A stretch of 64,000 bases of DNA from a virus. The stretch is taken from positions 1-64,000 of IMG/VR virus record IMGVR_UViG_3300029915_000731, one strand, 5' to 3'. Every line of letters starts with the position of its first letter. The first letter of the stretch is position 1. Made by a program: the position numbers and the translations under genes. Positions 3,234-33,243 of the stretch are shown here, piece by piece. The notes beneath the pieces were generated by a model that made no database searches, had not been told where the DNA came from, and was given only the letters and a program-made list of their open reading frames with translations.

Positions 3234-3320
3234 TGGTGCCAGAGACGGGACTCGAACCCGTATGAGTTTAACCTCGGAGGTTTTTGAGACCTCTGCGTAT
3301 ACCAATTCCACCACTCTGGC
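3234..3320 (-). tRNA. tRNA-Leu (CAA)
   Basis: Cloverleaf with acceptor GCCAGAG/CTCTGGC, encoded CCA, long class II variable arm, T loop TTCGAGT and anticodon loop CTCAAAA (CAA, reads UUG). Last gene of the leucine tRNA array in transcription order. Confidence 0.93.
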
Positions 3321-3326
3321 AAATTT

Positions 3327-3414
3327 TGGTACCCGTGACAGGAGTCGAACCTGCAAGACCCGGAGGTCTATGAGGGCTTAAACCTCATGTGTACGCCAAT
3401 ACCACCACACGGGC
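3327..3414 (-). tRNA. tRNA-Leu (UAA), copy 1
   Basis: Acceptor GCCCGTG/CACGGGT with encoded CCA, class II variable arm, anticodon stem TGAGG/CCTCA and loop TTTAAGC (UAA, reads UUA). Separated from its neighbour by a few bases. Confidence 0.92.
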
Positions 3415-3424
3415 ACATCTAAAC

Positions 3425-3515
3425 TGGTCGGCGCGGGGAGACTTGAACTCCCAGTTGACCTTGCGGTACGGCACGCCCTGAACGTGCTGTGTCTGCCGAA
3501 TTCCACCACGCGCCG
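3425..3515 (-). tRNA. tRNA-Leu (CAG)
   Basis: Acceptor CGGCGCG/CGCGCCG with encoded CCA, long variable arm, stem GCACG/CGTGC and loop TTCAGGG (CAG, reads CUG). The 5' base is C, unusual but paired. Confidence 0.92.
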
Positions 3516-3527
3516 AAAAATCTAAAA

Positions 3528-3615
3528 TGGTACCGGGTGAGAGACTCGAACTCTCATGAAGCTTGCGCCTCGCTAGCTCCTAAGGCTAGGGTGTCTGCCA
3601 TTCCACCAACCCGGC
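3528..3615 (-). tRNA. tRNA-Leu (UAG)
   Basis: Acceptor GCCGGGT/ACCCGGT with encoded CCA, class II variable arm, stem CTAGC/GCTAG and loop CTTAGGA (UAG, reads CUA). Confidence 0.92.
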
Positions 3616-3627
3616 AAATCTAAACTT

Positions 3628-3719
3628 TGGTACCCCTGACAGGACTCGAACCTGCAATGTTTACCGCTTGGGTATCGCGTCTTAAGCGCGACGTGTCTCG
3701 CCAGTTTCACCACAGGGGC
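3628..3719 (-). tRNA. tRNA-Leu (UAA), copy 2
   Basis: Acceptor GCCCCTG/CAGGGGT with encoded CCA, long variable arm, stem TCGCG/CGCGA and loop CTTAAGA (UAA). Same anticodon as the gene at 3327-3414 but a different body. Confidence 0.92.
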
Positions 3720-3731
3720 ACATCTAAACTT

Positions 3732-3822
3732 TGGTCGGCTCGATGAGATTCGAACTCACAATTGTCCTTTCGGAACACATGGACCTCAACCATGCGCGTC
3801 TCGCCAATTTCGCCACAAGCCG
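3732..3822 (-). tRNA. tRNA-Leu (GAG), copy 1
   Basis: Acceptor CGGCTTG/CGAGCCG with encoded CCA, long variable arm, stem CATGG/CCATG and loop TTGAGGT (GAG, reads CUU and CUC). A second tRNA-Leu (GAG) with the same 5' acceptor strand lies at 4470-4556. Confidence 0.92.
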
Positions 3823-3845
3823 ATACTTTACTTCAATACTGAGTG

Positions 3846-4094
3846 TTACCTCTCAACATGCCCCCTCTGAGAAAGCGCCCGGTCGATAAACTGGTCTGCA
3901 ACCTGTTCTCGGTACGCCGGGGACTCAAACAAACTTTTAGTGTCCATGGTGTAGTAGGTATTGTAGCTCTTCTTCCCCACCTTGTCGGATACCGCCACTT
4001 TCAGTATTGGAAAGCAGCCTCCGACTTGGACGGTGACATCGTCTCGCGTCACCTTTACCTTGCCATTCTTTAATACCTTAACACCCTTATCCAT
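3846..4094 (-). CDS. Hypothetical protein inside the tRNA-Leu array
   Basis: 82 residues. AGGTTG precedes ATG 4094. The first half is beta-prone and basic (KVLKNGKVKVTRDDVTVQV), the second helical (SPAYREQVADQFIDRALSQ). It splits the leucine tRNA array into 6 + 1 genes. Family not recognised. Confidence 0.65.
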   Translation of the reverse strand: MDKGVKVLKNGKVKVTRDDVTVQVGGCFPILKVAVSDKVGKKSYNTYYTMDTKSLFESPAYREQVADQFIDRALSQRGHVER

Positions 4095-4114
4095 TGTTTC
4101 AACCTGTTACCCTC

Positions 4115-4270
4115 TCACAGAATACTCACGCCTCCACGTCCAGCTATATGCTTTATCGTTTGGCCACAGTTTGGACAACACTTACGACTGACTCCTATGA
4201 CTCCTATAGGGGCTAGAAACGCTGCTAGAAGCCCCGAGATAACGAAAATGATAACCACTGTCAAAACCAT
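4115..4270 (-). CDS. 51-residue membrane peptide with CPNCG knuckle
   Basis: ATG 4270 is preceded by GAGAGGTATTT. The first 27 residues form one membrane helix (VVIIFVISGLLAAFLAPIGV), followed by RKCCPNCGQ, a half zinc ribbon, and a short cytoplasmic tail. Such one-helix plus CPxCG peptides are common phage orphans. Role unknown. Confidence 0.6.
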   Translation of the reverse strand: MVLTVVIIFVISGLLAAFLAPIGVIGVSRKCCPNCGQTIKHIAGRGGVSIL

Positions 4271-4355
4271 AAATACCTCTCGGAATCGGTGGGGGTGAGG
4301 AAATTGCTTCCCAGTGCTCCGCCTATTTGGGGTTATTCAGCGGACACCCCCGAAC

Positions 4356-4462
4356 TGGTGGACTGTGGTGGCGTTCGAGCCACGCTATCGCTTCATCTCA
4401 GGACACGGGAAAGTCACCCTAGCACCTGCCTTTACGATGTCTTCACCTAACTTACACAGCCC
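4356..4462 (-). ncRNA. tRNA-like element in a tRNA slot (degenerate)
   Basis: Immediately follows the tRNA-Leu at 4470-4556. The ends pair as a seven-base acceptor stem (GGGCTGT with ACAGTCC) and finish in ACCA. A GTGGC/GCCAC hairpin with loop TCGAAC sits where a T arm belongs, one base short of the normal loop. No normal anticodon arm can be drawn and the element is 107 nt long. A decayed tRNA or a tRNA mimic. Confidence 0.3.
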
Positions 4463-4469
4463 AAAACTT

Positions 4470-4556
4470 TGGTCGGCTTGGGGGGACTTGAACCCCCACT
4501 CCCTTGCGAGAACCAGCCCCTCAAGCTGGCGCGTCTGCGAATTTCGCCACAAGCCG
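4470..4556 (-). tRNA. tRNA-Leu (GAG), copy 2
   Basis: Acceptor CGGCTTG/CAAGCCG with encoded CCA, long variable arm, stem CCAGC/GCTGG and loop TTGAGGG (GAG). This tRNA would read the CUU codon at which the release-factor frameshift at 30.37 kb is proposed. Confidence 0.92.
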
Positions 4557-4634
4557 ATAACTTACATTAACCTAATACTACAAAATCTGGTGGGCTGGGA
4601 AGGATTAGTTATACCTCACATCCCCTTACGAAAG

Positions 4635-4722
4635 TGCGCCGTGATGGATTCGAACCACCGATGTTACTCTTAAAGAGGACTGGGTTACGGCCAGTCGCTT
4701 TCGTCCACTCAGCCAACGACGC
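4635..4722 (-). tRNA. tRNA-Tyr (GUA), atypical
   Basis: Acceptor GCGTCGT/ACGGCGC with discriminator A, long variable arm, normal T loop TTCGAAT, stem ACTGG/CCAGT and loop CCGTAAC, giving anticodon GUA but C instead of the nearly invariant U at position 33. CCA is not encoded. A segment ending in CCCACCA follows at about 4588-4612 and looks like the 3' end of another, lost tRNA. Confidence 0.75.
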
Positions 4723-4735
4723 ATATCTAAAAATT

Positions 4736-4826
4736 TGGTGGGTAGGGAGGGATTCGAACCCCCAGCGTGCCCAAAGGGCATCCAGATTTACAGTCTGGCG
4801 CGGCCAACCGTATCCACGTCCTACCC
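4736..4826 (-). tRNA. tRNA-Tyr (GUA)
   Basis: Acceptor GGGTAGG/CCTACCC with encoded CCA, class II variable arm, stem CCAGA/TCTGG and normal loop CTGTAAA (GUA). First tRNA of the left island in transcription order. Confidence 0.92.
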
Positions 4827-6676: not shown

Positions 6677-8395
6677 TCATTCTTCATAGTTCTCGTAAGC
6701 TTCAACCACTCGCTGTACCAAAGCATGGCGAACCACGTCAGTCTTATCGAAGTCTTGAAAGTGAATCCCCTCAATGTCGTGTAGCACTTTGCGTGCCTGA
6801 ATCAACCCGCTCATCTGACTAATGGGAAGGTCGATTTGAGTGATGTCTCCGGTGATGACCACTTTCGACTCCATACCCATGCGGGTGAGTAACATCTTCA
6901 TCTGCTGAGTGGTGGTATTCTGCGCTTCATCAAGAATGATGAAAGCGTTGTTGAGGGTGTTATGAGTCAAGATAAAATCATCGGTGACATACAAACTGTC
7001 CCCTGCCGCTACCTTAATACACTGAGTTTCCTCATCTCCTATAAATTCAATGGACTTAATAGATCGAACCGGACGCCCCCTTTTTGTCGTGTGATAGGCT
7101 TCAGACTTTCGACTAAGCCTAAACGGCTCTAGCCCATCCGGGAGTCTTATATCGAGACAAAACCAATTGCGCCGATGATACACGGGTCGGGTAGAAGAAC
7201 CCCCCGGTCTTCCTGATGGCTTTCTTTCTCTCCATGTAACTGTGCCACCTAAAGAGCGAACTAAGAAAATCACGCCATCTTTAAGTTGTTCTGAAGTAGT
7301 GGTATACCCGATACGGCTGGTTCTATTATTTTGTGAAACTACACCACCGTCTGTATCTAACAACCCTTGCAATACCCCAAGTCTAACATTCAAACTATTG
7401 TACAGATATTCCTCGGGGATAAACTTGGTGTAAGAATAGGTGCCAAGTGTGTAGTCAATATCCGAACCCGTGCAGGGTTTAATCACAACTTTCATCCAAT
7501 CCAAGTAGGGAGCAATCAGTGCTACTGAATCTGCTGTAGTAAAAGAGGGGGTGGTCGAACCTGTAATACACCCGTCTCCCAATAGAGCCCCTAACAAATA
7601 GGGATCAAGTGGAACATGTCGAAACCCAAAATTAACGGGGGCGACTAAAGGCAGTTCATACCGATATTGATGGGCACTCCGTAGACTATCAACCATATCT
7701 TTAGTCTGAATAACGCGATACGGCTTATCTCGACGTTTATCACTCGCAGTCAGCACAGACCATAAATGTTCATCAGAAGCTAATGTGGAAGCCCCATCAG
7801 TGGTTGTTACTCTGTAGACAGGCTTAACACCTTGTGGGTACACCCCTAAAACTGTTGTTGGACTACCATCCGACCCAACCACTGCATCCCCTACTTCAAG
7901 GCTCCCCATTAACTTCCAGCCAGTTGGTGTTAAAACACTACTTCGGAGGGGCTGCGCTCTACCCCTCATGAAAGCCAACGGGGCAACCTCGATAATTCCC
8001 TTCTCCAAATACTGGTCAACCTTCTCTGGGGGCATCAGGTCGTAGAGCGCGTCGTACAGAGGGCGCAGGTAGGGGTCAACCTTATCCTGCATAGAGCCAG
8101 GGAGGAAGCCCAAACGTTCTCCTGCTTCTACGGCGGGGCGGACAAGAACAAGGCGATTACCCTTCTTTGCCAGCCAAGTGACTGCTTTGGCGACGGCGAG
8201 GAGGGTCTTGCCTGTACCTGCGGGCCCAATGCCGAAGACCATATCGTTGGCATCAATCGCATCGAGGTAGTTCTTTTGGTTGACACTCTTCGGCTTAACC
8301 TTCAGAAAGCCCAGCTTCGCAGATGGGTGATAAGGGGCATCAACTTCAACTTGCGATGCTTCGGGAGTTACCTTTTTCTTATACTTGTTACCCAT
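6677..8395 (-). CDS. phoH: PhoH-like ATPase interrupted by an intein
   Basis: 572 residues as encoded. N-extein 1-146: Walker A GPAGTGKT (57-64), [16 protein letters not shown], ending [10 protein letters not shown]-extein 480-572: [16 protein letters not shown] (Walker B) and the [10 protein letters not shown] motif. Joining the exteins gives a normal PhoH-like ATPase of 239 residues. This family is frequent in large phages and is linked to phosphate starvation and RNA metabolism, but its phage role is unsettled. The ATG at 8395 follows the stop of the preceding gene directly (TAAATG). The insertion sits at the conserved RGR|TLNN site beside the DEAQ motif. Confidence 0.92.
6959..7957 (-). 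mobile_element. Intein with LAGLIDADG homing endonuclease, class 3 signature
   Basis: Residues 147-479 (333 aa) of the PhoH precursor. The intein starts AQPL, with Ala instead of Cys or Ser at position 1, and ends LTHN before Thr+1. Class 3 inteins are defined by a Trp-Cys-Thr set. Here these are Trp212 (SDEHLWSV, block B), Cys459 (QCIKV, block F) and Thr477 (THN, block G). Two LAGLIDADG motifs are intact: LLGALLGDG (Asp273) and LQGLLDTDG (Asp348), so homing activity is plausible. Both splice ends look functional. Confidence 0.85.
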
Positions 8396-28885: not shown

Positions 28886-28960
28886 TGGAGCGGGAGACGG
28901 GAATCGAACCCGCGACATTCAGCTTGGGAAGCTGACGTTCTACCACTGAACTACTCCCGC
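28886..28960 (-). tRNA. tRNA-Gly (CCC)
   Basis: Acceptor GCGGGAG/CTCCCGC, discriminator T, encoded CCA, T loop TTCGATT, anticodon loop TTCCCAA (CCC, reads GGG). Confidence 0.95.
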
Positions 28961-28997
28961 TCACTTCGTATGAATCTCTCTTCGACCGTACAAACTT

Positions 28998-29162
28998 TTA
29001 TTTTACAATAGAGATGATGTCACGGCCTTCTTCACCGACCACGTAGGCTGTGATCGAAGATTGATCGAACTTCCGATAGCAGCGCGGGGTGTCCCCGTCG
29101 ATGTGAATGCGGACAGTAGACGCCTGTGACATCAGGAATCCCACGTTCTCCTTCTGCATCAT
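28998..29162 (-). CDS. 54-residue hypothetical protein
   Basis: ATG 29162 (with a second ATG next to it) follows AGTATTAGAG; TAA at 28998. Residues 12-54 look like a small beta domain (STVRIHIDGDTPRCYRKF, then AYVVGEEGRDIISIV). An inner ATG at residue 11 is also possible. Function unknown. Confidence 0.55.
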   Translation of the reverse strand: MMQKENVGFLMSQASTVRIHIDGDTPRCYRKFDQSSITAYVVGEEGRDIISIVK

Positions 29163-29198
29163 CTCTAATACTGCTAATACTGCTGTTCTACTATTTAC

Positions 29199-29274
29199 TG
29201 GTAGGGTTAGTGGGGTTCGAACCCACGTTGGAAGATTGAAAGTCTTCTATCCTGACCGATTAGATGATAACCCC
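29199..29274 (-). tRNA. tRNA-Glu (UUC)
   Basis: Acceptor GGGGTTA/TAACCCT, encoded CCA, stem GAAGA/TCTTC, anticodon loop CTTTCAA (UUC), T loop TTCGAAC. Confidence 0.94.
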
Positions 29275-29280
29275 AAAAAA

Positions 29281-29358
29281 TGGTAGGGCCAGTGAGATTC
29301 GAACTCACGATTTCCTCCTTGAGAGGGAGGCGGCTTAAGCCAACTGGCCTATGACCCC
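29281..29358 (-). tRNA. tRNA-Glu (CUC)
   Basis: Acceptor GGGGTCA/TGGCCCT, encoded CCA, stem CCTCC/GGAGG, anticodon loop CTCTCAA (CUC, reads GAG), T loop TTCGAAT. Confidence 0.92.
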
Positions 29359-29375
29359 ACATTACATCTAAAATT

Positions 29376-29442
29376 TGGTAGCGGTTTCCGACGCCCGCAC
29401 GGTTCCTCCCAGCAGCTACGGGGAGCCCGTTGTTACACCGCT
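29376..29442 (-). ncRNA. Short tRNA-like element ending in CCA
   Basis: Occupies a tRNA slot between tRNA-Glu and tRNA-Val. Acceptor-like pairing AGCGGT/ACCGCT plus ACCA, and a CTCCC/GGGAG stem with a ten-base loop where the anticodon arm should be. It lacks a TTC-type T loop and is only 67 nt. Decayed or strongly reduced tRNA. Confidence 0.3.
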
Positions 29443-29472
29443 AGCTGTTCTCTAGTTCCAAGCGGGAGTCAT

Positions 29473-29594
29473 TTTCAATCAGACCCCGAGACTTTCCGGG
29501 GATGTAACGCCTGTGCGTAATCTCACTGTCCCCGATAGTTTCTTTCAATCGGACCCCCGATACCTTCCGGGGATGTAACGCCTGTGCGTAATCT
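29473..29594 (-). repeat. CRISPR-like repeat pair (array A)
   Basis: Two copies, 29473-29508 (36 nt) and 29543-29579 (37 nt), separated by 34 nt. On the minus strand each begins GTTACATCCCCGG and ends CGGGGTC.GATTGAAA, with a CCCCG/CGGGG hairpin inside. Fifteen bases preceding each copy (AGATTACGCACAGGC) are also identical, so the duplicated unit is about 51 bp. The left copy is identical to the copy at 33244-33279. Confidence 0.75.
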
Positions 29595-29670
29595 TGGTAC
29601 TCTCGGTTGGATTCGAACCGACGATTTCCTCCGTGTCGAGGAGGCGATTTAGCCACTAATCTACGAGAGC
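29595..29670 (-). tRNA. tRNA-Val (GAC), C33 variant
   Basis: Acceptor GCTCTCG/CGAGAGT, encoded CCA, T loop TTCGAAT, stem CCTCC/GGAGG, loop TCGACAC giving anticodon GAC with C at position 33 instead of U. Confidence 0.85.
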
Positions 29671-29676
29671 AAAACT

Positions 29677-30421
29677 TTAGTACAGTAAGTCTAGTTCACC
29701 CTTCAATATTCTCTCTGGGTACTGAACCATCTTACCATTGCGATGGTCTTTTGCGAAGCCCTTAATGAAGTTGTAGGTGCGAATCTTATCGCCCCGGCCA
29801 CCTCCACCTAACTGACTCTGCCGCTCAATACCGTAAGTGGTCTCTGCTTCCTTATCCTTCGCCAGCTTCACTTTCTGAGCTAGGATGGCAAGTGCGTCTT
29901 CCTTGTTACGGTGTTGGTCTCGACCATTGATAAAGACCGACAATCCAGTGGGCTTGTGTACGGCTCTCACCGCACTGTCGGTGGTGTTCTGATGCTGCCC
30001 ACCTTTACCGTGCCCCCGCTGAGTCTTGACTTCAATCTCAGAATCGGGAAGTTTGTCCTGATACTTCTCAGGAGGTAATGGCAATACAGCTACCGAGACC
30101 ACTGATGTGTGCCGCCGTCCAGCCCTGTCATTATCAGGGCACCGCTGGACAACGTGCTTTCCAGCTTCCCGGCGAAATAGTTCCCATACGTCTTGCCCAG
30201 AGAACTTCATTACTGCGTGTCCAAAACTACTGGTGAGTATCTCGGTCTTGAGTTTCTTGCGGAGCCCATACTGTGCGTAAGCACTGAGCATGTCGTCCAC
30301 GAAACCCTTCGAGTCATCCCCACCTTCACCGAAGTGAATTTCGAGAATCAAATCTGAGGATGGTCTAAAGACAGTTCCCTCGGACTGTATTCACCGCGTT
30401 GCTTTTCTGTTTTTCATACAT
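29677..30421 (-). CDS. prf: Class I release factor, apparent +1 frameshift at CTT TAG
   Basis: Zero frame: GAGGAGGATGCT, ATG 30421, 18 codons, then CTT (30368-30370) TAG (30365-30367). Skipping T30367 enters the frame that runs to 29677 without a stop, for 247 residues in total. The downstream frame alone has only an unsupported TTG (30351). Domains: no RF domain 1; LILEIHFGEGGDD opens domain 2; QRCPDNDRAGRRHTS occupies the stop-recognition place, with PDN where RF1 has PxT and RF2 SPF; GHGKGGQHQNTTDSAVR is the catalytic GGQ loop. E. coli prfB uses CUU UGA in the same way with a Shine-Dalgarno-like stretch upstream; here GAGGG lies six bases before CTT. A UAG sensor implies RF1-like specificity (inference). 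Confidence 0.82.
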
Positions 30422-30469
30422 AGCATCCTCCTCAGGATTGAATTAAATCTTCTTCCTTCCAGCCTCTTA

Positions 30470-30634
30470 TCACCTCGACTGCTGTCGCTCGTGGCTCAGG
30501 TAAGAATAACTTGCCATGAGAAAACCAATTGGATCATCTCCAGCACCAACATCACCATCAAACAGTTCTACCAAGAACTTCGCTACTCTCGCTTCGTCAG
30601 GCGAGTATGGATTGGTCTCCATGTTACGTGTCAT
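30470..30634 (-). CDS. 54-residue acidic protein before the release factor gene
   Basis: AAGGTGAGAA precedes ATG 30634; TGA at 30470. Helical and acidic (DEARVAKFLVELFDGDVG), ending QQSR. Cotranscribed with the release factor about 50 bases downstream. Function unknown. Confidence 0.55.
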   Translation of the reverse strand: MTRNMETNPYSPDEARVAKFLVELFDGDVGAGDDPIGFLMASYSYLSHERQQSR

Positions 30635-30668
30635 TTCTCACCTTAGAACAGTAAATCTACTCCAAAAC

Positions 30669-30744
30669 TGGTGGAGCTGGAGAGGCTTGAACTCTCGACC
30701 TTTTCCATGCCATGGAAACGCGCTCCCAACTGCGCCACAGCCCC
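30669..30744 (-). tRNA. tRNA-Ala (GGC)
   Basis: Acceptor GGGGCTG/CAGCTCC, encoded CCA, stem TTTCC/GGAAA, loop ATGGCAT (GGC), T loop TTCAAGC. Confidence 0.93.
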
Positions 30745-30751
30745 ACAACTT

Positions 30752-30855
30752 CGTGTGATGCAGTGCCGGAATCGAACCGACCTTGTGGCCGACAGAATCA
30801 TCCAAGCCATCTTATGGATTCAAGAGAACCCAGTTCTCTTCATCCTGCACACACG
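30752..30855 (-). ncRNA. tRNA-like element with extended acceptor stem
   Basis: Lies in a tRNA slot between tRNA-Ala and tRNA-Asp. A normal T arm (GTCGG, TTCGATT, CCGGC) is present. The ends pair for 11 bp (CGTGTG-TGCAG with CTGCA-CACACG, one bulge) rather than 7. The D-arm position holds an AAGAGAA/TTCTCTT stem, and an ATCCA/TGGAT stem closes a ten-base loop. No CCA is encoded. Not a standard tRNA. Confidence 0.4.
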
Positions 30856-30863
30856 CTAAAAAT

Positions 30864-30942
30864 TGGCGGTTCCAGCGGGATTTGAACCCGCGATCTTCAC
30901 CTTGACAGGGTGACGGGGACGGCCAGACTCCCCTATGAAACC
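30864..30942 (-). tRNA. tRNA-Asp (GUC)
   Basis: Acceptor GGTTTCA/TGGAACC, discriminator G, encoded CCA, stem TCACC/GGTGA, loop CTGTCAA (GUC). Confidence 0.94.
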
Positions 30943-30950
30943 AAAACTTT

Positions 30951-31026
30951 TGGTGGAGCTAGTCGGGATCGAACCGACGACCTCATCGTTGCGAACGATG
31001 CGCTCTCCCAACTGAGCTATAGCCCC
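30951..31026 (-). tRNA. tRNA-Ala (CGC)
   Basis: Acceptor GGGGCTA/TAGCTCC, encoded CCA, canonical D arm, stem CATCG/CGATG, loop TTCGCAA (CGC, reads GCG). Confidence 0.95.
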
Positions 31027-31254
31027 ATCCCCCTTTATGCGCGACCGTAAGGGCTCGTGACAGAGTTGACCTAGCGGCGGGGGTACCGTTTCATGCCTCT
31101 CCCAGTGTCACCCAAGAGACTACAAGCGGCGGAGGTACGGTAGCATGTCAAAACCAGAGAGCGAGTCTTTCTCCATCTGTTATGTGTTTACTACTCTCGC
31201 CCTACCGTCACAACCCATTGGTCAGTTTCTACTCACTGGGTCGGACTTAAACTT
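31027..31254. other. Spacer with a 23-bp imperfect direct repeat
   Basis: AGCGGCGG.GGTAC.GT..CATG occurs at 31073-31095 and 31125-31147. On the plus strand each copy looks like a ribosome site plus ATG and opens frames of 16 and 39 codons; on the minus strand there are only tiny frames. No tRNA is visible in this stretch. Confidence 0.45.
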
Positions 31255-31291
31255 TTTCAATTGAACCCCGAGACCTTCCGGGGATAACAAC
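31255..31291 (-). repeat. CRISPR-like repeat, isolated variant copy 1
   Basis: Same hairpin family as at 29.5 and 33.2-33.4 kb but with TTG for TCN and ATAACAAC at one end. About 50 bp around it, from AAACTTTTTC to CACTTATA, are identical to the copy at 32569-32605. Confidence 0.65.
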
Positions 31292-31384
31292 CACTTATAT
31301 AAGATGTGAGGATGAGCTTCTCGTCTCACCCATAGCGGGTTCTTATGTTGCCGCCGTCCTGATTGAACGATCACACCTTAAACT

Positions 31385-31461
31385 TGGAGCACTAGGAGGA
31401 ACTCGAATCCTCGCATTAACGGTTTTGCAGACCGTCGCCTTACCATCTTGGCCACTAGTGC
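31385..31461 (-). tRNA. tRNA-Cys (GCA)
   Basis: Acceptor GCACTAG/CTAGTGC, discriminator T, encoded CCA, stem ACGGT/ACCGT, loop CTGCAAA (GCA), T loop TTCGAGT. Confidence 0.94.
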
Positions 31462-31466
31462 TAAAC

Positions 31467-31545
<79 letters not shown>

Positions 31546-31603
31546 TGAGGGGGTAAATTTATAAAGCGGAAAGTCTACGTCAGACCCCCATCCGCTGAAT
31601 TAC

Positions 31604-31988
31604 TGTGCCAAACCGATAAGCGGAGTTCTGTTCCCCTCGCGGGGTGACAATCATTCGTCTACGAATACTGTTACCAGTACCCTCTAGCCCTCAACCCGCC
31701 GATTCATAACGGTACGAGCAGTACCTGTCGGCCTATTTGAAGTTGCATCGCGTAGAGATTGCCCGTTTCACCCGGCGTCCGGTTTCCCGGCTGACCGACT
31801 CGTCTCTGTTGCTCTAATCGTCGCAAGGGGGATTGGTTGGGAATTTACGGCTGTTACACCGCTGTCACGTTCGACATGAGAAACGCTTCCAACCACACCT
31901 TACGCTAGGCCGTTAGCCTATACGCTGCTCTTTGATGCTCCGACTTTCCTCCCCCACTTGCGTGGCGGCGATTGTCTGGTTTGGCACA
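31604..31988 (-). ncRNA. rnpB: RNase P RNA, bacterial type A
   Basis: 385 nt on the minus strand. P1: TGTGCCAAACC pairs perfectly with GGTTTGGCACA at the two ends. P2: GACAATC pairs with GATTGTC. Conserved core pieces appear in the right order: GGGGAGGAAAGTCGGAGC (CR I with 5' P4), GAGCAACAGAGACGAG (CR II), GGGTGAAACGGGCAA (CR III), CAAATAGGC with a following AGGTACTG that could supply the GGU loop binding tRNA CCA, and ACAGAACTCCGCTTAT (CR V with 3' P4; CGGAG/CTCCG pair). This is the catalytic RNA that cuts tRNA 5' leaders. It lies among phage tRNA genes on the same strand. A short hairpin (AGCGGA/TCCGCT) follows its 3' end. Confidence 0.93.
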
Positions 31989-32019
31989 ATTCTGTATTGA
32001 AGCCGGGTCGGGACTTACA

Positions 32020-32361
32020 TCAATCCACCTTGATGCGTTCTACTGCCACGCAGCGGAGGTGGTCTCGCACCTCTTGAGAGAACTCGTTGAACATCGTGCC
32101 CTTATCCAACCAGTGCAAGATGGCCGCCCAAGTCTCCTCTTCAGGGGTCCACTGCCCTTCAAGACCGTAACACGAGCAGTGTGAACCGTGAACTGAAAAC
32201 AGCTTACCATCCTTCTCGAATAGGACAAAAGCCGAACCCTCGTAACACTCGTAGCGATACACAGCCGCGTAGATTACAGCGTCCTTCAATTCGTCCTCGC
32301 CGATTTGGAACTCCCGGCGGATGTCTTCAGCTTCATTGAACTGCTCCTCGAATACATTCAT
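32020..32361 (-). CDS. Conserved phage protein with HCSCYGLEGQW motif
   Basis: 113 residues from ATG 32361, preceded by CAAGGAGAAAACACA. N-terminal helices, then YECYEGSAFVLFEKDGKLF strands, the motif GSHCSCYGLEGQW, then PEEETWAAILHWLDKG. I know this motif from phage orphans of T4-like and other large phages, without known function. Lies immediately upstream of the RNase P RNA gene. Confidence 0.7.
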   Translation of the reverse strand: MNVFEEQFNEAEDIRREFQIGEDELKDAVIYAAVYRYECYEGSAFVLFEKDGKLFSVHGSHCSCYGLEGQWTPEEETWAAILHWLDKGTMFNEFSQEVRDHLRCVAVERIKVD

Positions 32362-32447
32362 TGTGTTTTCTCCTTGTGAAATCACATTCACGGGTGGAGT
32401 CGCGCAATGAAGTTCGATATGACAGCCCAACCCGACTTCAAAACTTT

Positions 32448-32526
32448 TGGTGGACCTCCAGAGATTCGAACTCTGCTGATATTTTCGGTGCAAGCGAAAT
32501 AAACACTCCTAGCATTTCCGAGGCCC
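32448..32526 (-). tRNA. tRNA-Ala (UGC), divergent D arm
   Basis: Acceptor GGGCCTC/GAGGTCC, encoded CCA, stem TTTCG/CGAAA, loop CTTGCAC (UGC), T loop TTCGAAT. The D arm (AAATGCTAGGAGTGTTT) is weak and U8 is missing. Confidence 0.75.
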
Positions 32527-32568
32527 ACATTAAACTTAAATTTTCAAAGACCGTCAAGCTCTAAACTT

Positions 32569-32605
32569 TTTCAATTGAACCCCGAGACCTTCCGGGGATA
32601 ACAAC
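32569..32605 (-). repeat. CRISPR-like repeat, isolated variant copy 2
   Basis: Identical to the copy at 31255-31291 together with the flanks on both sides. Confidence 0.65.
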
Positions 32606-32607
32606 CA

Positions 32608-32635
32608 CTTATAAGCTTGATTCGTCGGGTGTCAA
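32608..32635 (-). promoter_or_regulatory. Sigma70-type promoter in the tRNA island
   Basis: Minus strand TTGACA (32630-32635), 16-bp spacer, TATAAG (32608-32613). Points toward tRNA-Ala (UGC), the 113-residue gene and rnpB. Confidence 0.6.
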
Positions 32636-32661
32636 GCTTATTAGCTTGTCCCGGTGTCAAC

Positions 32662-32689
32662 CTAATACTGTTGACATTACCTTTGTCAA
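32662..32689 (-). promoter_or_regulatory. Promoter-like element using TATTAG
   Basis: Minus strand TTGACA (32684-32689), 16-bp spacer, TATTAG (32662-32667) inside an AGTATTAGG copy of the recurring motif. Only here does that motif have a clear -35 partner. Confidence 0.5.
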
Positions 32690-32711
32690 CGTTACTCTGT
32701 TGACGAAACTC

Positions 32712-32786
32712 TGGAGCGGGAGACGGGAATCGAACCCGCGACCAACAGCTTGGAAGGCTGAGACTCTACCACTGAGTTACTCCCGC
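32712..32786 (-). tRNA. tRNA-Gly (UCC)
   Basis: Acceptor GCGGGAG/CTCCCGC, encoded CCA, loop CTTCCAA (UCC), T loop TTCGATT. One mismatch at the base of the anticodon stem. Confidence 0.93.
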
Positions 32787-32810
32787 ATCTACCCCCTTCA
32801 TAAAATCTCT

Positions 32811-32903
32811 GAGGAGCCTACAGGACACTACCTGTAGTCATTGGCGGTAATCGGGTCTCCCCTTCCCGCTAGGTAAGCCGAACTTACGTTTCGGCCACTC
32901 CTC
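32811..32903 (-). ncRNA. tRNA-like cloverleaf without canonical T loop
   Basis: In a tRNA slot between tRNA-Gly and tRNA-Val. Acceptor-like GAGGAGT/GCTCCTC (7 bp), D-like arm CCGAA/TTCGG, and a CTACAG/CTGTAG arm with loop GTAGTGT instead of a TTC loop. No clear anticodon and no encoded CCA. Confidence 0.35.
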
Positions 32904-32909
32904 AAACTT

Positions 32910-32984
32910 TGGTACTCGATAAAGGATTCGAACCTTCGACTTCCCACTTGTAAGGAGGGCACTCTACCGCTGAGTTAATCGAGC
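32910..32984 (-). tRNA. tRNA-Val (UAC)
   Basis: Acceptor GCTCGAT/ATCGAGT, encoded CCA, loop CTTACAA (UAC), T loop TTCGAAT. One T-T mismatch in the anticodon stem. Confidence 0.92.
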
Positions 32985-33152: not shown

Positions 33153-33243
33153 GTTCTTCCTCACACTTTTATAATACCCAGTATTTCTGGTTTTTGTCAA
33201 TTCATTTCTGAATTTATTTTTAAACCCCATCATCTTTTCAATT

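Follow-up and report, generated by a model that had tools for sequence, protein, structure and literature searches.

Of the two ribozymes that are near-universal, one is RNase P RNA, which is seen as a housekeeping RNA of the cell. The hallmarks of type A RNase P RNAs are helices P6, P16 and P17, while P13 and P14 are usual in this type without being universal.

RNase P is unmentioned in the main text of a survey of huge phages (Al-Shayeb et al. 2020, PMC7162821). The open-access literature searched yielded no paper recognised as describing an RNase P RNA encoded by a phage; subscription journals and preprints were mostly not covered and priority is unproven. The class A model of Rfam, RF00010, was not found in phages G, XacN1, Atu_ph07, Lak-B9, SCTP-2, Tunturi_5 and LR756511. 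Its absence from the first six fits the statement of the initial annotation that no well-studied phage is known to have its own copy. A blastn search with the RNA described below gave no match among 50,697 phage records.

A class A RNase P RNA among the tRNA genes of a phage

The window, the whole 64,000-nucleotide stretch of DNA that was analysed, belongs to the 100,340-bp IMG/VR virus record IMGVR_UViG_3300029915_000731. Scanning it with cmscan yielded a match to RF00010 (RNaseP_bact_a) at 31987-31601 on the minus strand, with 182.3 bits (E=2.9e-57; gathering score 100 bits). The match is full length, model positions 1-367 of 367 without truncation, and is the single RNase P RNA copy of the record. 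The initial annotation had read a phage-encoded type A RNase P RNA at 31604-31988 and had proposed the Infernal run as a check. The significant match and the covariation bear out the identity, the phage gene context and the recurrence in tRNA islands of other phages bear out the phage ownership, and the coordinates had to be corrected by 1-3 nt. The locus is confirmed as a class A RNase P RNA that is the phage's own. Its parts are as follows.

31601..31987, minus strand: RNase P RNA gene, bacterial class A, 387 nt (Rfam RF00010)
31977..31987, minus strand: 5' strand of P1 (partner 31605-31616; two-sided changes in 9/11 P1 pairs among relatives)
31605..31616, minus strand: 3' strand of P1 (projected structure)
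31970..31976, minus strand: 5' strand of P2 (partner 31646-31652)
31646..31652, minus strand: 3' strand of P2 (projected structure)
31938..31946, minus strand: 5' strand of P4, AAGTCGGAG, with the bulged U, CR I (100% of cells paired; two-sided changes in 5/8 pairs)
31618..31625, minus strand: 3' strand of P4, CTCCGCTT, CR V (covariation)
31926..31930, minus strand: 5' strand of P6, GAGCA, pseudoknot with L17 (96% of cells paired; two-sided changes in 3/5 pairs)
31716..31720, minus strand: 3' strand of P6, TGCTC, within L17 (covariation)
31694..31697, minus strand: L15 GGGU (invariant in 15 phage sequences)
31826..31900, minus strand: 75-nt extra module in P9, GTGTGGTTGGAAGCG...CCCAACCAATCCCC (insertion in the Rfam alignment)

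Projection of the Rfam structure onto the RNA gives 85 nested pairs, 78 of them canonical, and both pseudoknots form, P4 (AAG-U-CGGAG/CTCCG-CTT) and P6 (GAGCA/TGCTC). P1 and P2 pair over 11 and 7 bp as originally read, and the core segments noticed then, GGAGGAAAGTC and ACAGAAC.CCGCTTAT, are those that pair as P4. All 8 P4 pairs are made, the bulged U is present and CR I-V are kept; the loss of P4 or CR V core residues, which would have refuted the reading, is not observed. The type A hallmarks are there too, with P16 and P17 paired in addition to P6. Among 83 near-invariant positions defined from 27 cellular RNAs, 76 are kept. Of the seven that differ, two (C47G and G366C) face each other in a single P4 pair, and this flip from C-G to G-C is found in 16 of 46 phage copies versus one of 86 cellular sequences, a narrow cellular sample. 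The GGGU of L15, with its CCA-binding GGU, does not vary across the 15 phage sequences and should pair with the tRNA 3' CCA.

P13 and P14 are absent, a model segment of 43 positions being missing in the Rfam alignment. Since P9 is also replaced by the extra module, the tertiary contacts L14-P8 and L9-P1 are probably lost. The thermodynamic fold of the single sequence is modestly better than that of shuffles (z=-2.9), as expected of a pseudoknotted RNA; the structural case rests on the covariance model and covariation, not on thermodynamic folding.

The RNA lies inside a tRNA island, as had been proposed. Of the 21 phage tRNAs, only the 12 same-strand genes that surround it (28886-32984) form this island, the other nine (Leu, Tyr) being in a separate island at 3234-4826. 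CCA is encoded in 20 of the 21 genes. The neighbours are listed here.

31471..31545, minus strand: tRNA-Gly(gcc), next gene downstream, 55 nt away
31385..31461, minus strand: tRNA-Cys(gca)
28886..31026, minus strand: downstream part of the island, Ala(cgc), Asp(gtc), Ala(ggc), Val(gac), Glu(ctc), Glu(ttc), Gly(ccc)
32448..32984, minus strand: upstream part of the island, Val(tac), Gly(tcc), Ala(tgc)
32020..32493, minus strand: ORF 32 nt upstream of the RNA, probably a shorter frame with ATG at 32360
33171..33200, minus strand: promoter-like TTGACA-18-TATTAT upstream of the island (11/12 consensus match)
29677..30351, minus strand: class-I peptide release factor homologue, GGQ, 224 aa (PF00472 4e-24, PF03462 1e-19)

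The promoter-like site, the best one detected, is a possible common promoter of the island. It is weak evidence because five such sites were found versus 3.4 expected; its position upstream of the whole island makes co-transcription likely, which is not shown. The ORF next to the RNA has a 67% identical homologue in L342/L346.

Several other features of the island were recorded. The tRNAs in it serve almost exclusively GNN codons (Val, Ala, Asp, Glu, Gly) and Cys, a set that recurs in relatives L190, L197, L200, L202, L342, L347 and L358-L360. The release factor is short; phage LR756511 (595 kb) has a homologue of 51% identity, and other large viral contigs have homologues as well. A hairpin element, CCCCGGAAGGTCTCGGGGTTCAATTGA (CCCCGGAAGGTCTCGGGG-type), occurs five times between tRNA genes on the minus strand (29484, 29555, 31266, 32580, 33255).

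The record codes for a DnaB-like helicase, a DnaC-like loader, ribonucleotide reductase, a tail protein, a transposase, a RecA-like ATPase, a release factor, a sigma factor and PhoH; it has no 16S rRNA and is possibly only a piece of a jumbo phage genome. The PhoH-like ATPase (6677-8395, minus strand) bears an intein with LAGLIDADG endonuclease and Hint domains. The genes at 42-62 kb follow the order of the tail module in Tunturi_5 (PP885688; PMC11924767), an isolated 309-kb myovirus of Tunturiibacter (Acidobacteriota), and the main proteins are 41-54% identical; the tail, RNR and DnaC genes are collinear between the two phages. The collinear virion and tail genes place the record with the Tunturi_5-like jumbo myoviruses. 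No DnaC relatives were found in IMG/VR by the search made. The host is probably an acidobacterium, an inference from the kinship with Tunturi_5 only. Tunturi_5 has 43 tRNAs and a tRNA nucleotidyltransferase but no RF00010 match, so that lineage can do without the RNA.

Structural selection, recurrence and origin

Covariation was scored in an alignment of 15 phage sequences, of which the window RNA is 63-71% identical to the others, over the pairs of the window structure plus P4 and P6. Standard pairs fill 96.6% of 1250 pair cells, against 75.7% after shuffling and 34-42% in slid controls. Two-sided changes affect 55 of 84 pairs, P4 and P6 included, and amount to 290 cells versus 89 +/- 8 in shuffled alignments; the covariation score is 0.643 versus 0.232. 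The source of the structure, one of the 15 sequences together with Rfam, favours it somewhat, a bias by which the two-sided changes in P1, P4, P6, P17 and P18 are hard to explain. The pairing and the two-sided changes thus indicate that the fold is preserved by selection.

IMG/VR was scanned with DNA patterns from the conserved cores. RF00010 scored above cut-off in 28 of 50 chosen records and in all 24 records with the clade motif TAGNGCNACAGAGACGAG. In more than 20 large viral contigs, of up to 463 kb, the RNase P RNA lies within or beside tRNA arrays, which reach 64 tRNA genes in ~20 kb and in several cases include tmRNA. The distance to the tRNA genes is often just 0-6 nt: tRNAs stand 6 nt away on both sides in G001 and G012, and the RNA abuts tRNA-Gln and tRNA-Lys in G058. 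None of the 32 RNase P RNA-bearing phage records has a 16S rRNA, and Terminase_6N exceeds the cut-off in five of them, with a sixth below.

Contaminated 'viral' records were set aside from this evidence. MW495066 (MW495066.1, L219), deposited as 'Microcystis phage MaAM05', was matched in BLAST by other phage copies but rejected as isolate evidence: it looks like a piece of a bacterial chromosome, with flagellar, SecF, glyS and rnpB genes. The unannotated gut fragments matched in the same way were rejected likewise, and many IMG/VR pattern matches, among them G038, G044, G045 at 334 bits, are possible host DNA and were not used.

RnpA (PF00825) was not found in the record or in 31 other phage records, by a search that was positive in 10 of 14 control genomes; the record itself may be a fragment. 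The initial annotation had suggested a search for rnpA and reliance on the protein subunit of the host, which this absence fits.

Higher-scoring RNase P RNAs (215-343 bits) are present in 59 of 60 Acidobacteriota genomes. In the tree, the window RNA groups with phage RNAs (11 phage rows, 80/95), away from Acidobacteriota, and an acidobacterial origin or a recent copy from that phylum is unsupported. The 11-row group lies inside a 25-row starred set that includes five cellular rows. The phage groups G006/G011, G007/G010, G018/G034 and G030 are placed elsewhere, which makes more than one acquisition likely at low resolution; bootstrap support is unsettled and the MAFFT alignment is not structure-aware.

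The phage copies vary in several ways. The extra module, GTGTG(S)(W)TGGAAGCG...CCCAACCAWGTCC, has a consistent fold with two internal loops and is found in P9 (window, G019, G035), P3 (G063, G078) and P12 (G076), so that one RNA element occupies three different helices. A scan of IMG/VR with a strict pattern did not find it outside RNase P loci. In other copies the bulged U of P4 has moved by one pair and the other strand compensates, CR I reading AAGTTC, not AAAGTC, and CR V GGCTA, not GCTTA. Compact RNAs lack much of the specificity domain; they come from viral contigs 122-527 kb long and lie near tRNA genes. The 445-nt RNA of G029 (L205) apparently has a short ORF, MTNRLSMTLLIRLNSDSE..., inserted inside it.

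Module copies: L068 7169-7206; L157 1268-1297; L345 3774-3811; L348 11465-11523; L360 5384-5442
RNAs with shifted P4: L369, L375, L372, L374, L376, L371 (G065, G063, G057, G067, G060, G076, respectively)
Compact RNAs: L210 (G052, 202 nt); L203 (G024, 243 nt); L209 (G055, 301 nt); L196 (G008, 336 nt)

Proposed function and its rivals

The best explanation, given a probability of about 0.75, is a working phage ribozyme that is co-transcribed with the tRNAs and matures them using host RnpA. Identity, intact core, structural selection, phage location, recurrence with tRNA arrays and RnpA absence are observations; transcription, RnpA binding, cleavage and benefit are inferred. The RNA would probably be transcribed within a polycistronic tRNA transcript, fold, and recruit RnpA from the host, the record encoding none. 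The holoenzyme would then remove the 5' leaders of the CCA-encoding phage pre-tRNAs, raising RNase P capacity when the phage floods the cell with precursors or once the host has ceased to make RNA. In relatives with tRNAs 0-6 nt away, cleavage at the next tRNA would also free the 3' end of the ribozyme. Conservation of the CCA-binding GGGU, the catalytic P4 and CR I-V argues for catalysis, and the repeated placement among tRNAs argues for tRNA substrates. Against this explanation, the host already supplies RNase P, Tunturi_5 manages its 43 tRNAs without an RF00010 match, and the lack of P13/P14 together with the altered P9 has probably cost the RNA some tertiary contacts; there are no expression or activity data.

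The main rival, unlikely but not excluded, is a decoy: by binding RnpA or pre-tRNA of the host, the RNA would depress the host's RNase P activity as the phage takes over. An RNA without a phage RnpA in any of 32 records must compete for the host protein, and the strongly shortened RNAs (202-301 nt) of some huge phages may be poor enzymes; a decoy, however, would need neither the conserved P4, CR V and L15 nor covarying helices, and the RNA is placed among tRNA genes that require RNase P. Quite improbable is a division of labour in which the host enzyme matures the tRNAs while the phage RNA acts mainly on phage mRNAs or the inter-tRNA hairpins, or with altered specificity. The repeated CCCCGGAAGGTCTCGGGG-type hairpins would offer such substrates and the P9 module could alter specificity, but those tRNA-recognition elements that can be checked are intact, and RNase P RNA is repeatedly associated with tRNA arrays.

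Phages often acquire tRNA-linked DNA, and the RNA could be a non-functional passenger captured with host tRNAs. This is very improbable in view of dozens of compensatory pairs, in both pseudoknots as well, at 63-71% identity to the window, and of the grouping of the phage RNAs in the tree apart from Acidobacteriota. Bacterial contamination or a chimeric assembly is scarcely credible: some RF00010-bearing 'viral' records are indeed contaminated, as MW495066 is with its flagellar genes, but here the RNA sits inside a phage tRNA island and is flanked by phage genes on either side, 16S is lacking, and the same arrangement is met in many independent assemblies.

A more far-reaching view, put forward only tentatively and held to be doubtful, is that of a long-lived viral RNase P RNA lineage evolving apart from its hosts. 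It would have a plug-in module placed now on one helix, now on another; some lineages would have a re-registered P4 and others a miniaturised RNA. It could form a self-releasing ribozyme-tRNA operon of altered specificity or protein requirement, making tRNA maturation partly host-independent.

Comparison with known systems

A virus-encoded copy under selection shows that large phages bring along not just tRNAs but also the first step of their maturation. Together the phage copies offer a naturally occurring set of divergent and miniature RNase P RNAs, with compensated changes in the catalytic P4 helix that are directly testable, and they raise the question why a phage with many tRNAs would outgrow the RNase P of its host.

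The window RNA has in common with E. coli M1 RNA and the RF00010 class A model helices P1-P12 and P15-P18, the P4 and P6 pseudoknots, CR I-V and the GGU of L15. It differs from the class in being phage-encoded with no rnpA in the record, in lacking P13/P14, in the 75-nt P9 module and in the C-G to G-C flip of P4 that is common in phage copies. The translation gene sets of huge phages (PMC7162821) likewise comprise tRNAs, a release factor and further genes of translation. Phage-encoded tmRNA, too, is a structural RNA of the translation machinery, of host type, that phages carry in their tRNA arrays, those of relatives here included, but it is another RNA with another function, whereas RNase P RNA is a ribozyme required for tRNA maturation.
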